Positions 50,997 through 56,899 of a stretch of DNA of 64,000 nt are shown piece after piece. The notes under the pieces are model-generated. The model made no database searches, had not been told where the DNA came from, and saw only the letters and a list, made by a program, of their open reading frames with translations. How positions within the stretch are numbered: the first letter of the stretch is position 1; each line of letters opens with the position of its first letter. Origin of the DNA: an uncultured Leptolinea sp. (GTDB taxonomy: Bacteria > Chloroflexota > Anaerolineae > Anaerolineales > Anaerolineaceae); contig CAIKMQ010000003.1 in the NCBI GenBank assembly GCA_903828565.1, forward strand, positions 124,001 through 188,000, written 5' to 3'. The translations under genes and the position numbers were made by a program.

Positions 50997-51027
50997 AAGA
51001 CACCTCCGCAGTGCGGAGGTGTCTTTT
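50997..51027. terminator. Bidirectional terminator between glpX and the Met-rich protein gene
   Basis: AAGACACCTCCGCA (50997-51010) and TGCGGAGGTGTCTT (51012-51025) form a nearly perfect stem whose T-rich ends serve both convergent genes. Confidence 0.85.
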
Positions 51028-51604: not shown

Positions 51605-51667
51605 TCATACTCCTTGTTGGTTTTGATTGACTACAAGGCATATGATACCGATGAGTTATGAACAACC

Positions 51668-51695
51668 TGTGAAACGGATGTGAAGATGTTGTGAA
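51668..51695. promoter_or_regulatory. Three TGTGAA direct repeats at 11-bp period (OmpR-type operator candidate)
   Basis: TGTGAA occurs at 51668-51673, 51679-51684 and 51690-51695, exactly 11 bases apart. On the minus strand a TATCAT (51647-51642) is placed so that its -35 would fall on the proximal repeat, the layout used for class-II activation by OmpR/PhoB-type regulators. The array sits between the divergent Met-rich gene and the response-regulator gene. Confidence 0.75.
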
Positions 51696-51730
51696 GGTTC
51701 CCCATACCCGCAGGTCGTTCATGGGACGAA

Positions 51731-51739
51731 TGCTATAAT
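51731..51739 (+). promoter_or_regulatory. Extended -10 promoter of the two-component operon
   Basis: TG at 51731-51732, one base, then TATAAT 51734-51739. The expected start point coincides with ATG 51746, so the mRNA may be leaderless; no ribosome-binding site is seen. Confidence 0.6.
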
Positions 51740-51745
51740 GACGAT

Positions 51746-52429
51746 ATGGAACGAATATTGATCATCGAAGACGAGATGGAACTGGTTCGAGTGCTGCGCA
51801 GCTATCTGGAAAAGGCTGGCTACAGCGTCATCCACGCAACACGCGGCGATGAAGGGCTTGCCCGCTGGGAAGCAGATAAGCCGGATCTCGTTTTGTTGGA
51901 CCTGAACCTCCCCGGTATAGATGGCCTGGATATTGCCCGCCAGATGCGGAAAAAGTCGGACATCCCGATTTTAATGCTGACCGCAAGGGTGGATGAATTG
52001 GATCGACTGATCGGCCTTGAGCTTGGCGCTGATGACTATATCTCTAAACCATTTTCTCCCCGCGAGGTAGTTGCCCGGGTGAAAGCGGTGTTGCGGCGGA
52101 CCGGCTCATCAGTCCGACCGGAGGCGAAAATCACGCAGATCGGAGAGTTGTCGATCGATATGGATGCGCATCAGGTAAAGCTTGGCGGAGTTGAGTTGGA
52201 GTTGACCCCCACCGAATTCAGCCTGCTGGCTGCATTGGCCGCGCAACCCGGGCGGGTTTTCAGCCGCCTGCAATTACTGGAATACTCGCAGGGCACGGCC
52301 TATGAAGGATACGAACGCACGATCGATGCGCACATCAAGAACCTGCGGGCAAAGATCGAACCGGATTCACACAACCCGCAATACATTGAAACAGTTTTTG
52401 GCGTGGGATACCGTTTCCACAAAGAGTAA
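51746..52429 (+). CDS. OmpR-family response regulator
   Basis: The 227-residue regulator has a receiver domain with acidic pair D9/E10, phosphoacceptor D52 in VLLDLNLP, T79 and K101 (ISKPFSPRE), and a C-terminal winged helix at about 130-225 (LELTPTEFSLLAALAAQPGRVFSRLQLLE, YERTIDAHIKNLRAKIE). No Shine-Dalgarno is evident at ATG 51746. The histidine-kinase ATG starts 3 bases after its stop. The TGTGAA repeats upstream are the natural candidate for its binding site. Confidence 0.93.
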   Translation: MERILIIEDEMELVRVLRSYLEKAGYSVIHATRGDEGLARWEADKPDLVLLDLNLPGIDGLDIARQMRKKSDIPILMLTARVDELDRLIGLELGADDYISKPFSPREVVARVKAVLRRTGSSVRPEAKITQIGELSIDMDAHQVKLGGVELELTPTEFSLLAALAAQPGRVFSRLQLLEYSQGTAYEGYERTIDAHIKNLRAKIEPDSHNPQYIETVFGVGYRFHKE

Positions 52430-52432
52430 AGA

Positions 52433-53815
52433 ATGAATCTGCGCCTGCGTTTTGCCATCTCCTTTATCCTGATCGCATTGGTGTCCATTGTGGCAGTGGT
52501 TGCTTTCGCCCGGGTGAATGTCGCCCGGGAAGTGAACACCTATATGTTTCGCGGTGGTATGGTCGGCGTGAATGTACTGGTAAGCAACCTGGAGGTGTAT
52601 TACCAGTCTAATGGATCATGGGAGGGTGTCAGCGCCCAGCTGGATACTGCCAGAACAAATGGCGGGCATATGGCAGGTATGCTGGGTAAAGAAGGTCAGG
52701 GTGCCATGCAGCAGGATATGTTGCTGGCAGATATGAATTATGAAATCCTGTACGACACCCGCAGAGCCAGGATGGGCGAAGCCTTGAGCGTGAGTGAAAA
52801 AGCTGGCGCAATCGTCCTGCTGGGCAGTGACAGCCAGCCGGTTGGATACCTGTTCATCTCCGGCGGTATGCAATTCCAACCAGGGGCTGACCGTGAATTG
52901 GTGGATAAGCTTAATCAGGCGGCGATTAATGCCGGCCTGATCGCCGGCGGGCTTTCACTGTTGGTTGCGGGCTTGCTGGGCTACCTGATCCTGAGGCCGG
53001 TGCAGCGCCTGACTGCCGCAGCGAACCGGATTGCCAGCGGTGACCTGGCAGAACGTGTGCCTGTCAACGGAAATGATGAAATGGCTGTGCTGGGCAAGGC
53101 ATTTAACACAATGGCCCAGTCGCTTGAAACAGCACAGATCAACCGCAAGGCGATGACAGCCGATATTGCCCACGAACTGCGTACGCCACTGGCAATTCAG
53201 CGAGCTATTTTGGAAGCGATCACGGATGGCATCTATCCGCTGGACCTTCAGCAAATACAGCTGGTGACGCAGCAGAACCAATCCCTGACCCGCCTGGTGG
53301 ATGATCTACGAATACTGGCGCTGGCAGATGCTGGTGAATTGCGTCTGGATATCGATACAGTCGACGCGAAAGGTCTGCTCAGCCGGCTGGTCGCTGAGTT
53401 TGAACCCACCGTATCAGAACGCAGCATTCAGCTGGCAATACCTGGTGTGGATATGAACGGGCAATGGCTGGTTCGTGCGGATGCTTTCCGCCTGGGCCAG
53501 GTGATCAAAAACCTTCTCAGCAATGCATGCCGCTATTCTCCAGATGGAGGGGCGGTCATCAGCCAACTTTCCAGGGAGGGAAACTGGATATTGCTGAGTA
53601 TCAGTGACTCCGGCTCCGGAATTCCTGCCGGGGAGGAAGAGAGCATTTTCGAACGTTTCTTCCGCTCTGATCAGTCACGCAGCCGCGAAGATGGTGGAAC
53701 CGGCCTCGGCCTGGCCATTGCCCGTCAGCTGGCACGGGCTCACGGGGGCGACCTGACGGCTATCAACAAGCCGGAGGGTGGTGCGCAATTCATTTTACGG
53801 CTGCCTGCCGCATAA
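52433..53815 (+). CDS. Sensor histidine kinase
   Basis: The 460-residue protein has TM1 at about 7-26, an extracytoplasmic sensor of about 135 residues, TM2 near 165-187, a HAMP domain, HisKA with H247 in DIAHELRTPLAIQ and a HATPase domain (NLLSNACRYSPDGG, SDSGSGIP, GGTGLGLAIARQLARAHGGDL). The sensor part holds a Met/His-rich stretch (HMAGMLGKEGQGAMQQDM), which invites comparison with metal sensing and with the Met-rich protein divergent from this operon. That link is inference. It is paired with the response regulator at 51746. Confidence 0.92.
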   Translation: MNLRLRFAISFILIALVSIVAVVAFARVNVAREVNTYMFRGGMVGVNVLVSNLEVYYQSNGSWEGVSAQLDTARTNGGHMAGMLGKEGQGAMQQDMLLADMNYEILYDTRRARMGEALSVSEKAGAIVLLGSDSQPVGYLFISGGMQFQPGADRELVDKLNQAAINAGLIAGGLSLLVAGLLGYLILRPVQRLTAAANRIASGDLAERVPVNGNDEMAVLGKAFNTMAQSLETAQINRKAMTADIAHELRTPLAIQRAILEAITDGIYPLDLQQIQLVTQQNQSLTRLVDDLRILALADAGELRLDIDTVDAKGLLSRLVAEFEPTVSERSIQLAIPGVDMNGQWLVRADAFRLGQVIKNLLSNACRYSPDGGAVISQLSREGNWILLSISDSGSGIPAGEEESIFERFFRSDQSRSREDGGTGLGLAIARQLARAHGGDLTAINKPEGGAQFILRLPAA

Positions 53816-54040: not shown

Positions 54041-56899
54041 ATGCCTACCCAACCAACCAAGCAGGCGAATAAGGATGATGTTCAAGTCAGCTGGCACGCT
54101 CTCAGTCAGAATGAGGTCGTGCAGCGACTCAGCACCCCGTTACCGAGCGGATTGACATCTGAAGAGGTAGCCAGAAGACAGGCCCAATATGGATTGAACC
54201 AGTTGACCGAAGCTCCACGACCGGGGTTTCTGGCCAAACTGTATGATCAGCTAAAGGGTTTTGTCGTTGTTTTACTGATCGTGGCGTCCATCATCTCAGC
54301 TGTTCTGGGAGATTGGATCGAGGCTGGTGCGATCATGGCGATCGTGGTTCTGAATGCCGTTCTGGGGGTTGTGCAGGAAAGCCGTGCCGAGCAGGCACTC
54401 GCCGCGTTGAAAAAACTGGCTGCGCCAGAAGCCCATGTATTGCGGGATGGCAAGCGCATTTCCGTCCCCGCCCCGCAGCTGGTTCCTGGTGATGTAGTAT
54501 TTTTAGAAGCAGGGAACTTTATCCCGGCAGATATCCGCCTGGTGGAAGCGGTCAATCTGAAGGTGGAAGAAGCAGCCCTGACAGGCGAGAGCCTGGCTGT
54601 GCAGAAACATGCCCAGGATGACCTGGCAGCGGATATCCCTCTGGGTGACCGCAAGAACAGTGTATTTATGGGAACTCTGGTCTCTTATGGCCGCGGACGC
54701 GGTGTGGTGGTTTCCACCGGCATGCATACCCAGTTGGGCCTGATCGCAACCATGCTGCAAGCTGTTGAGCTAGAGGAAACTCCGCTGCAAAAGAGGTTAG
54801 AAGACCTGGGAAAACTGCTGGGTGTGGCTTCACTGATCATCTGCGGTCTGGTTTTCGTCATTGAAGTGATTGGTGTGGTTCGGGTTTCGGGTGGGCTGCC
54901 TACTAATGGTACCGCCGGATGGCAACCCTTCATAGACAGCCTGGTCAATGCCTTCATGATCGCGGTCAGCCTGGCGATCGCTGCGGTGCCGGAAGGGCTG
55001 CCAGCGATCGTGACCATCAGCCTGGCGCTTGGGATGCGCGAAATGGTGAAGAAACATGCGCTCATCCGCAAGCTGGCATCGGTGGAGACATTGGGCTCGG
55101 CCACTGTGATCTGTTCTGATAAGACAGGCACCCTGACGCAGAACGAAATGACAGTTACCCGCCTGTGGGTGGATGGTACTTTTGTAGATGTCACCGGCAG
55201 TGGGTATTCCCCTGAAGGAGAGTTCCAGGTCGGTGGTAAAAAAGTAGATCTGGAAAATTACCCGGCTGTTTCTACGGCGCTGTGGGTCAGCGTGCTGAAT
55301 AATGACGCTCTGTTGGAAAAAGCTGACACCAACGCCGGGTTCCGGATGGTTGGTGACCCGACAGAAGGCGCTTTGTTGGTAGCTGCGGTCAAAGCCGGGG
55401 CGAAACTCAACGGTGTTTTGAAGGCGTACCCGCGACAGGATGAGATCCCCTTTGATTCTGTCCGGAAGAGAATGGTGACGGTACACGGCCTTGTCGCCCC
55501 TTCAGATGATGATATTTCGCCGGTCTATGGCGCTGGAAAGAAACAATGGTACGCGGTGGCTGTCAAAGGCGCTCCGGATGAGGTGCTGAAGCTCTGCACC
55601 AGTATCCAGTCTATGGATGACCGCTCTACCCGGCCATTGAATGAAAGCGCGCGGGCGGCCGTGTTGGCGGCCAACGATGCCATGACTGAGAAAGCCTTAC
55701 GGGTTCTCGGCCTGGCTTATAAACTGATCCCAGAGAACCCTGGCGGGATTAAACCGGAAGTGCTGGAGCAGGATCTGGTGTTTGCCGGCTTGATCGGAAT
55801 GATCGACCCGCCGCGGGTAGAAGTAAAACCGGCACTTGAAAAAGCCCGGGAAGCAGGCATTCGCACCGTCATGATCACAGGGGATTACCCGAACACCGCG
55901 CGCGCTATCGCGGAATCGATCGGCTTACTGCGGCCTGGCCGGCAAGTCCGCACCGGGGCGGAGATCGACCCGCTGAACGATGAGGAGATGCTGGCTGTGG
56001 CGCGCGAAACCGATGTGTACGCGCGGGTGTCTCCTGAACACAAGATGAAGATCGTGGAAGCCCTGCGCGCGGACGGCGAGGTGGTCGCCATGACCGGGGA
56101 CGGCGTCAATGACGCCCCGGCGATCAAGCTGGCTGATATCGGCATTGCCATGGGCATCACCGGTACCGATGTTGCCAAAGAGACTGCCGACATGGTGCTG
56201 ACCGATGATAACTATGTCAGTATCGTTTCTGCCGTTGAGCAGGGCCGTGTCATTTACAGCAATATCCGCAAGTTCGTGTACTACCTCATCTCATGCAATA
56301 TGGCGGAGATTGCCATCATTTTTCTGGCGACATTGTTTGGCTGGCCGTCACCGCTGACTGCCATCCAGTTGCTCTGGTTGAACCTGGTGACAGATGGCGC
56401 TCCGGCGCTGGCCCTGGGTACTGAAAAAGGCGACCCCGATATCATGCAGCAGCCTCCGCGTCCGCCGAAAGAGAGCATTATCAACCGCTTTATGCAGATC
56501 GGCGTGGTTATTCAAACCATCGCTATTACTTCAGTTGTGCTCGGTGCCTATTACCTGGGACGGCATACAGACCCCCAGCACATAGAGTTTGCGGAAACGA
56601 TGGCATTTGCCACCCTGAGCATCTCAGAGTTACTGCGAGCATACACCGCCCGTTCTGAGTACTTCCCCCTGTTGAAGATCGGGGTGTTCAAGAACCGCTG
56701 GATGAACTGGGCTGTACTCTCTTCCGTGGTCATGATCTTAGCTGTAATCTATGTTCCATTCCTGAACAACGTCTTCAACACCGTACCCCTCGGGCTGGCA
56801 CAATGGGAGGTGATCGTACCGCTGCTGTTCGTGCCTTCAGTGGCGGCTGAATTGACTAAAACATTCCTTTCCCCCATGCGCCGAAAAAAGACAGCTTAA
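54041..56899 (+). CDS. P-type Ca2+-transporting ATPase (type IIA)
   Basis: The 952-residue pump contains the N-terminal cation-ATPase domain, actuator motif ALTGES, phosphorylation site [16 protein letters not shown], nucleotide-binding domain and hinge [22 protein letters not shown]. The ion-site helices read [18 protein letters not shown] and [16 protein letters not shown], close to SERCA helices M4 and M6, so Ca2+ (or Mn2+) export is more likely than heavy-metal export; there is no CPC motif. It follows the two-component operon at 225 bases with its own promoter. A strong terminator ends it. Confidence 0.92.

Follow-up and report, generated by a model that had tools for sequence, protein, structure and literature searches.

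A predicted PhoB-like operator of four 11-bp repeats beside a BaeSR-like two-component system and its recurrence before envelope protein genes of related bacteria

The region under study separates two divergent genes in a 64,000-base stretch of DNA, hereafter the window. The minus-strand gene encodes a predicted secreted protein rich in Met and Gly, and the plus-strand genes encode an OmpR/PhoB-type response regulator and a BaeS-like sensor histidine kinase (Table 1). Neither Pfam nor NCBIfam has a family that matches the Met-rich protein at E ≤ 0.001, and relatives of it are detected by phmmer. In its predicted structure the N-terminal half is of low confidence and the C-terminal domain is helical, with pLDDT above 90 over approximately residues 101–170. 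None of the 103 PDB matches in a structure search reached E ≤ 0.001. A terminator-like hairpin lies just past the gene; four such hairpins were found between 50950 and 54200, against 2.7 expected. The regulator is composed of a receiver domain (Response_reg, 105.8 bits) and a winged-helix DNA-binding domain (Trans_reg_C, 91.3 bits, both Pfam). The frame located 3′ of the regulator gene was read in 27 of the 30 orthologous loci described below. It encodes a transporter in L102 and a kinase in the other 26, about 18 of which, the window's included, carry a Met-rich extracytoplasmic stretch as judged by eye. Further along, 225 bp downstream of the kinase gene, lies the gene of a calcium-type P-type ATPase (54041–56899), whose product falls under the PMR1-type and SERCA-type cut-offs and just over the PMCA-type cut-off.

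Table 1. Features of the locus in window coordinates. Promoter positions take TATCAT as -12 to -7, so that the repeats start at -60, -49, -38 and -27.
Feature	Position	Strand	Remark
Terminator-like hairpin, 13 pairs	50997..51025	-	just past the Met-rich gene
Target gene, predicted secreted Met/Gly-rich protein, 184 aa	51050..51604	-	
-10 box TATCAT of the Met-rich gene	51642..51647	-	exactly 9 bp past repeat 4
Repeat 4, TTCATA	51657..51662	-	about -27 to -22; conserved in relatives
Repeat 3, TTCACA	51668..51673	-	about -38 to -33, expected position of a -35 box
Repeat 2, TTCACA	51679..51684	-	about -49 to -44; often degenerate in relatives
Repeat 1 (distal), TTCACA	51690..51695	-	about -60 to -55 of the Met-rich promoter; register conserved
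-10 box TATAAT of the response regulator gene	51734..51739	+	6 nt ahead of the ATG
OmpR/PhoB-type response regulator, predicted reader of the repeats	51746..52429	+	
BaeS-like sensor histidine kinase	52433..53815	+	Met-rich extracytoplasmic stretch

On the plus strand the element reads as three TGTGAA hexamers starting at 51668, 51679 and 51690, between the divergent genes and at the exact 11-bp spacing that a sequence-only reading of the window had reported. That reading had counted three repeats and missed both a fourth, weaker copy in register with them (TATGAA at 51657) and the -10 box TATCAT. On the strand of the Met-rich gene the sequence runs (TTCACA-N5)3-TTCATA-N9-TATCAT, i.e. four 11-bp repeats. 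As had been proposed, a repeat occupies the -35 position, but it is the third repeat and not the most proximal one. A promoter search found no sigma-70-type -35/-10 pair at the Met-rich promoter. According to the sequence reading, the leader of the Met-rich gene is predicted to be about 31 nt long, with AAGGAG ahead of the ATG.

TGTGAA and TTCACA occur 11 and 9 times respectively in the 64,000 bases. Under independent placement about 5e-7 triples at 11-bp spacing are expected in the window on both strands, the spacing entered in this estimate having been chosen post hoc, after the sequence reading. Pairs of the same hexamer 6–40 bp apart are found in the window only within these three copies (spacings 11, 11 and 22). 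Allowing up to two mismatches, TGTGAA-N5-TGTGAA gave five matches in the window compared to 4.8 expected from shuffles, which is no excess, and TTCAYA-N5-TTCAYA-N9-TANNNT gave three, all inside this site, compared to 0.11 expected. The genome search for TGTGAA-N5-TGTGAA-N5-TGTGAA suggested by the sequence-only reading returned this single exact occurrence in 2.22 Mb.

Conservation was analysed upstream of orthologous regulators. The regulator was sought in 60 related genomes and in the window's own, and the 30 best loci were read, a single locus being taken per genome. Three of them (L098, L115 and L118) came without upstream sequence and were left out. In the remaining 27 the 1.5 kb upstream was searched for the highest-scoring series of four TTCAYA hexamers (maximum 24). 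With a period of 11, a score of at least 19 was reached in 16 of the 27 loci, including our own. The sequence-only reading had named absence of the repeats upstream of orthologues as what would speak against it; they are present at this score in 15 of the 26 relatives' loci. None of the 27 loci reached it at any of nine control periods (7–10 and 12–16). A score of at least 21 was obtained for nine loci at period 11 and for none at the control periods. Moreover, in 13 of the 16 sites, which were picked by their repeats alone, TANNNT stands at offset 9, and it never stands at offsets 0–8 or 10–19. Eleven loci fell below the four-repeat threshold. Five of these (L106, L111, L114, L116 and L119, picked by eye) carry a two-repeat version, and two more show a match to model R1, described below, further off on the same contig (G025:C198 and G037:C20).

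Relatives of the Met-rich protein are encoded in eight other loci, divergently in L091 and upstream in the same direction in seven. All eight loci score at least 19, and six of them (five of the seven codirectional ones) at least 21. In each of the eight the site lies ahead of where the Met-rich gene probably starts; for L099, L109 and L113 this start is a later ATG taken by eye, the longest frame opening in or before the site. Since the site precedes the gene in both the divergent and the codirectional arrangement, it stays with the Met-rich gene across rearrangements of the locus. The regions ahead of 20 further OmpR-type regulators of the same genomes, two of them short (273 and 993 bases), yielded no site with a score of 19 or more.

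A sequence-only model, R1, was constructed from 19 sites of other genomes, the window's genome not being used. Our own locus (L090) and L107 (score 19, no -10 box) were excluded from it, and the five two-repeat sites picked by eye were included. R1 recovered the window site moderately (17.8 bits, E 1.5e-4 in the window), as two separate pieces. In the window's genome 150 of the 447 first-look candidates were scored, so that the number of sites is at least five. The five top places all show by eye the four positions in register, N9 and TANNNT. Besides the intergenic window site ahead of the Met-rich gene, they are C32:6583, intergenic and ahead of a paralogue of the Met-rich protein; C9:107048, intergenic, with a degenerate third hexamer, ahead of a small membrane protein carrying a zinc ribbon (Pfam) at its C-terminus; C3:38495, intergenic and ahead of a MacAB-like efflux operon for a fusion protein, an ABC ATPase and a MacB-type permease (Pfam); and C35:9520, ahead of a DUF2202 protein, where repeat 1 reaches into the 3′ end of the frame before it. 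A pattern search of the genome returned C3:38496 with one mismatch and the C32 and C35 places with three; matches with three mismatches mean little alone, because a backwards control pattern also gave one match. No R1 match was found ahead of the P-type ATPase gene. The genome of the sister species (85% complete) yielded weak matches at best to the fusion protein and none to the zinc-ribbon and DUF2202 proteins.

Several candidates of the window's genome were rejected. The weak matches in C21, C30 and at C9:27064 (E 0.08–0.28) lie inside long reading frames, and three matches at C32:1958xx–1959xx (E 7–9) belong to a local tandem repeat. By eye, the latter region (L129, G000:C32 ~195800–195970) holds a ~65-bp tandem repeat with CATCTTCACCCATTCGT, apparently beside a tRNA-like 3′ end. 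A place with one mismatch followed by a 319-aa frame (C40:109207, L138) was not counted, as no further repeat was seen upstream by eye.

R1 was then applied to all 61 genomes. At E ≤ 0.01 it gave at least 95 matches in 42 genomes, 17 of them training sites, and a reversed R1 decoy gave two matches in two genomes; at most 91 candidates were scored per genome, so that the counts are lower bounds. With a close regulator defined as a match at E ≤ 1e-81 and our own genome excluded, 23 of the 29 genomes that have a close regulator contain a non-training site at E ≤ 1e-3, compared to 6 of the 31 that lack one (Fisher p 6e-6, genomes being treated as independent and not corrected for kinship). The six genomes with strong sites and no close regulator are G006, G022, G035, G040, G042 and G058. 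G035 is 65% complete, but the other five are 87–97% complete, and a missing regulator is thus not the whole answer.

Of the 46 non-training sites at E ≤ 1e-3, 41 were read. A script picked the first gene of each by start codon, ribosome-site score and length, and the calls in L175 and L190 are possibly wrong. The first gene encodes a relative of the Met-rich protein or of its paralogue at 16 of the 41 sites (phmmer E ≤ 1e-3). A Pfam scan covered 14 of the 25 other first genes, and nine reached a curated cut-off: DUF4405 in L170, L172 and L203, polyferredoxin (Fer4_5) in L186 and L199, DUF2202 in L207, a zinc ribbon in L192, VTC in L188 and cytochrome b in one gene of L179. The other five scanned (L168, L176, L185, L195 and L206) remained under cut-off. 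By eye only, L180 and L201 resemble DUF4405 proteins, L189 and L191 polyferredoxins, L197 the protein of L192, and L194 that of L176. DUF2202 also occurs as the second gene in L170, and a fusion protein as the third in L180. In L186, L189, L191 and L199 the polyferredoxin gene (by eye in L189 and L191) is followed 4–12 bp on by a second gene, whose product looks alike in all four loci and has no Pfam match in L186; polyferredoxin and second protein form a recurring two-gene unit under the four-repeat element. In L192, from 1047 to the end, the target is followed on the same strand by a 93-aa regulator-like, broken-off frame, a YHS/HMA frame and a P-type ATPase frame. The latter, of the E1-E2 type, contains CPC and DKTGT motifs, and the row is likely to represent a broken copy of the regulator gene beside a predicted copper pump.

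The window's genome is itself probably of Chloroflexota, perhaps of Anaerolineae. A phylum sample was scanned with at most 18 candidates scored per genome, by which one previously seen site, of G011, was lost. At least 16 of the 301 genomes have an R1 match at E ≤ 1e-4. Fifteen of the 17 places were read, and six precede a relative of the Met-rich protein or of its paralogue (E ≤ 1e-3). Among the genomes of named loci, 6 of 11 have a match at E ≤ 0.05, including an Oscillochloris and a 'Chloroflexi bacterium' MAG, and one Oscillochloris site lies ahead of a gene whose product is related to the Met-rich paralogue (E 2.5e-6). The loci of named relatives themselves (L010–L089, identity ≤ 53%) gave six weak matches at E ≤ 1, the best of which (E 0.02) lies just upstream of the L011 regulator.

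The solved structure closest to the regulator is that of Escherichia coli BaeR (4b09, E 1.5e-59), and the recognition helices are nearly identical (RTIDAHIKNLR in the window regulator, RTIDSHIKNLR in BaeR). Over the 30 loci this helix is nearly invariant ([ED]R[TS][IVL]D.H[IV]KN[LIM]R), which fits a conserved half-site. No curated cut-off was reached among the 25 NCBIfam matches listed for each of the regulator and the kinase (of 105 and 89). Thus the regulator scores below the equivalog cut-offs for PhoB (TIGR02154, 223.1 bits against 296.2) and BaeR (NF007982, 243.6 against 380), and the kinase below those for BaeS (NF012163, 256.4 against 500; NF007837, 229.6 against 603); the CopRS/CusRS/SilRS subfamily models likewise remain under cut-off (TIGR01387, 159.9 against 279.2; TIGR01386, 188.3 against 292.55).

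Tandem hexamers with an 11-bp period are a known type of site for OmpR-family regulators. They form the boxes of WalR, Bacillus subtilis PhoP and CiaR, with different hexamers and different regulons. The E. coli Pho box consists of head-to-tail 11-bp repeats of the half-site CTGTCA that end about 10 bp ahead of the -10 box. At PhoB promoters, which have no canonical -35, the regulator makes contact with sigma region 4 (PMC4496699). The present system resembles PhoB in the family of its regulator and in a promoter without a canonical -35, and differs in its half-site (TTCAyA), in usually having four positions in register, and in targeting envelope proteins. Mycobacterium tuberculosis PhoP is bound as a head-to-tail dimer to 7-bp TCACAGC motifs with a 4-bp spacer, i.e. 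an 11-bp period, and binds more tightly to three or four motifs (PMC4832192). The half-site is similar and the period the same; however, the recognition-helix contacts listed there (Asn212, Val213, Glu215, Ser216, Tyr217 and Tyr220) and the targets are other than here. With BaeSR, which has BaeR sites upstream of spy and mdtA in E. coli (PMC7657598), the system shares, besides the recognition helix, a secreted protein and an efflux operon as targets of its sites. It differs in that the efflux operon is MacAB-like rather than RND and in that the proteins fall under the equivalog cut-offs. Finally, in Synechocystis copMRS a Met-rich periplasmic copper-binding protein is encoded beside a two-component system that controls CopM and efflux (PMC4335983). 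There too a gene for a Met-rich protein adjoins a two-component system, but CopM has DUF305 domains and the window protein matches no Pfam family.

We consider it likely that the repeats constitute a PhoB-like class II operator by which the adjacent BaeSR-like regulator activates an envelope regulon. As for an operator, they are direct tandem repeats of about 11 bp, four in register and conserved at period 11 only. As for a class II promoter, they stand at a fixed distance from the -10 box in place of a canonical -35. The register, the fixed N9, the conservation, the sites across the genome with their targets and the association with the regulator are all read directly from the sequences. In the mechanism that we infer, two to four phosphorylated regulator molecules would line up on the 11-bp repeats in head-to-tail fashion. 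The proximal pair, at -38 to -22, would keep RNA polymerase and sigma region 4 in place over TATCAT, as PhoB does, and the gene of the Met-rich secreted protein would be switched on rather than repressed. Class II activation is favoured here by two traits of the layout, the constant N9 spacing to the -10 box and the lack of a -35. Since four further promoters with the element precede predicted secreted, membrane or efflux proteins, the element would mark the regulon of a BaeSR-like envelope system. The proposal of the sequence-only reading, an OmpR/PhoB-type tandem site most likely read by the neighbouring regulator, is supported by the conservation, the fixed -10 spacing, and the decoy and paralogue controls.

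The adjacent regulator might instead read the element as a repressor that covers -60 to -22 and blocks RNA polymerase until a signal arrives. The repeats do overlap the -35 region and the spacer; however, the Met-rich promoter shows no usable -35 (no sigma-70-type match), and a roadblock needs no fixed spacing, unlike the 9 bp kept exactly in 13 of 16 sites. Together with a layout that is that of PhoB-type activation, this makes repression improbable. We give marginally less credit still to a different OmpR-type regulator of the genome as the reader of the sites. Such candidates exist, since 32 regions of the genome match the regulator, and the six genomes with strong sites and no close regulator would be accommodated. 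Against it, 0 of 20 paralogue upstream regions, two of them short, reach the threshold, compared to 16 of 27 orthologous loci, and the presence of the element goes with that of the adjacent type of regulator. A chance or simple tandem-repeat artefact can hardly be entertained: the hexamers are short and the spacing was picked post hoc, but some 5e-7 triples were expected, the element is conserved in other genera, and the decoy control is clear.

The preferred reading, activation of the Met-rich gene, leaves apart the divergent regulator gene, for which the sequence-only reading had predicted autoregulation. In the window the repeats face the Met-rich gene, as they do in the sister species, and end 38 bp before the TATAAT of the regulator gene, with no N9 relation to it; direct autoregulation is thus unsupported here. 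The regulator gene moreover has its own TATAAT 6 nt ahead of the ATG. Elsewhere the regulator gene follows the Met-rich gene (seven loci), or it has two repeats, N9 and a -10 box at its own promoter (L111, L114, L116 and L119), and autoregulation is therefore plausible in those genomes. Overall, we regard it as doubtful that these repeats serve to activate the divergent regulator gene as well.

As to the signal, we would guess at a soft metal, for example Cu(I)/Ag(I), or at oxidative damage to the envelope. Copper or silver is plausible given the Met-rich stretches of the sensors and targets, the gene row with the CPC-motif ATPase and the analogy to CopM/CopRS; methionine oxidation is an alternative signal. 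We tentatively propose, as a possibility short of an even chance, an envelope stress regulon extending over the phylum, probably Chloroflexota. In it, the Met-rich stretch of a BaeSR-like sensor would read soft metal or oxidation, and a four-subunit operator would induce secreted Met-rich scavengers, redox membrane proteins of the DUF4405 and polyferredoxin types, DUF2202 proteins and efflux of the MacAB type. No function is known for several targets of this proposed regulon. Activation of the PhoB-like type from tandem repeats is already known, but the regulon attached to it here is apparently undescribed: neither motif nor regulon was found in the literature searched, whose coverage leaves out most subscription journals.

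To judge from sequence comparison, many related bacteria have the same predicted four-repeat switch ahead of genes for secreted Met-rich proteins and of other envelope genes. An isolated motif thereby becomes a testable regulon with a simple grammar (four TTCAyA at 11 bp, N9, TANNNT), and families of unknown function, namely the Met-rich family, DUF4405 and DUF2202, gain a common context. Promoters with two to four repeats also offer a natural series on regulator stacking versus promoter strength.

Variants of the layout were seen upstream of two other regulators, TCCATA-N5-TCCACA-N9-TATGCT in L243 (G041:C821) and TCCATC-N5-TCCACA-N9-TATCTT in L235 (G027:C7). The geometry is the same, with TCCAYA for TTCAYA, and these may perhaps be sister regulators with shifted specificity. 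At the regulator gene itself, the TATAAT 6 nt ahead of the ATG makes it possible that the mRNA is leaderless in the window. By eye, TATAAT stands 6–7 nt ahead of the regulator ATG in 10 of the 30 loci, namely the window, L091, L093, L094, L099, L100, L102, L103, L106 and L108, and TACAAT stands there in L111, L112 and L114. A -10 box 6–7 nt before the ATG in so many loci suggests that a leaderless mRNA for the regulator may be conserved.
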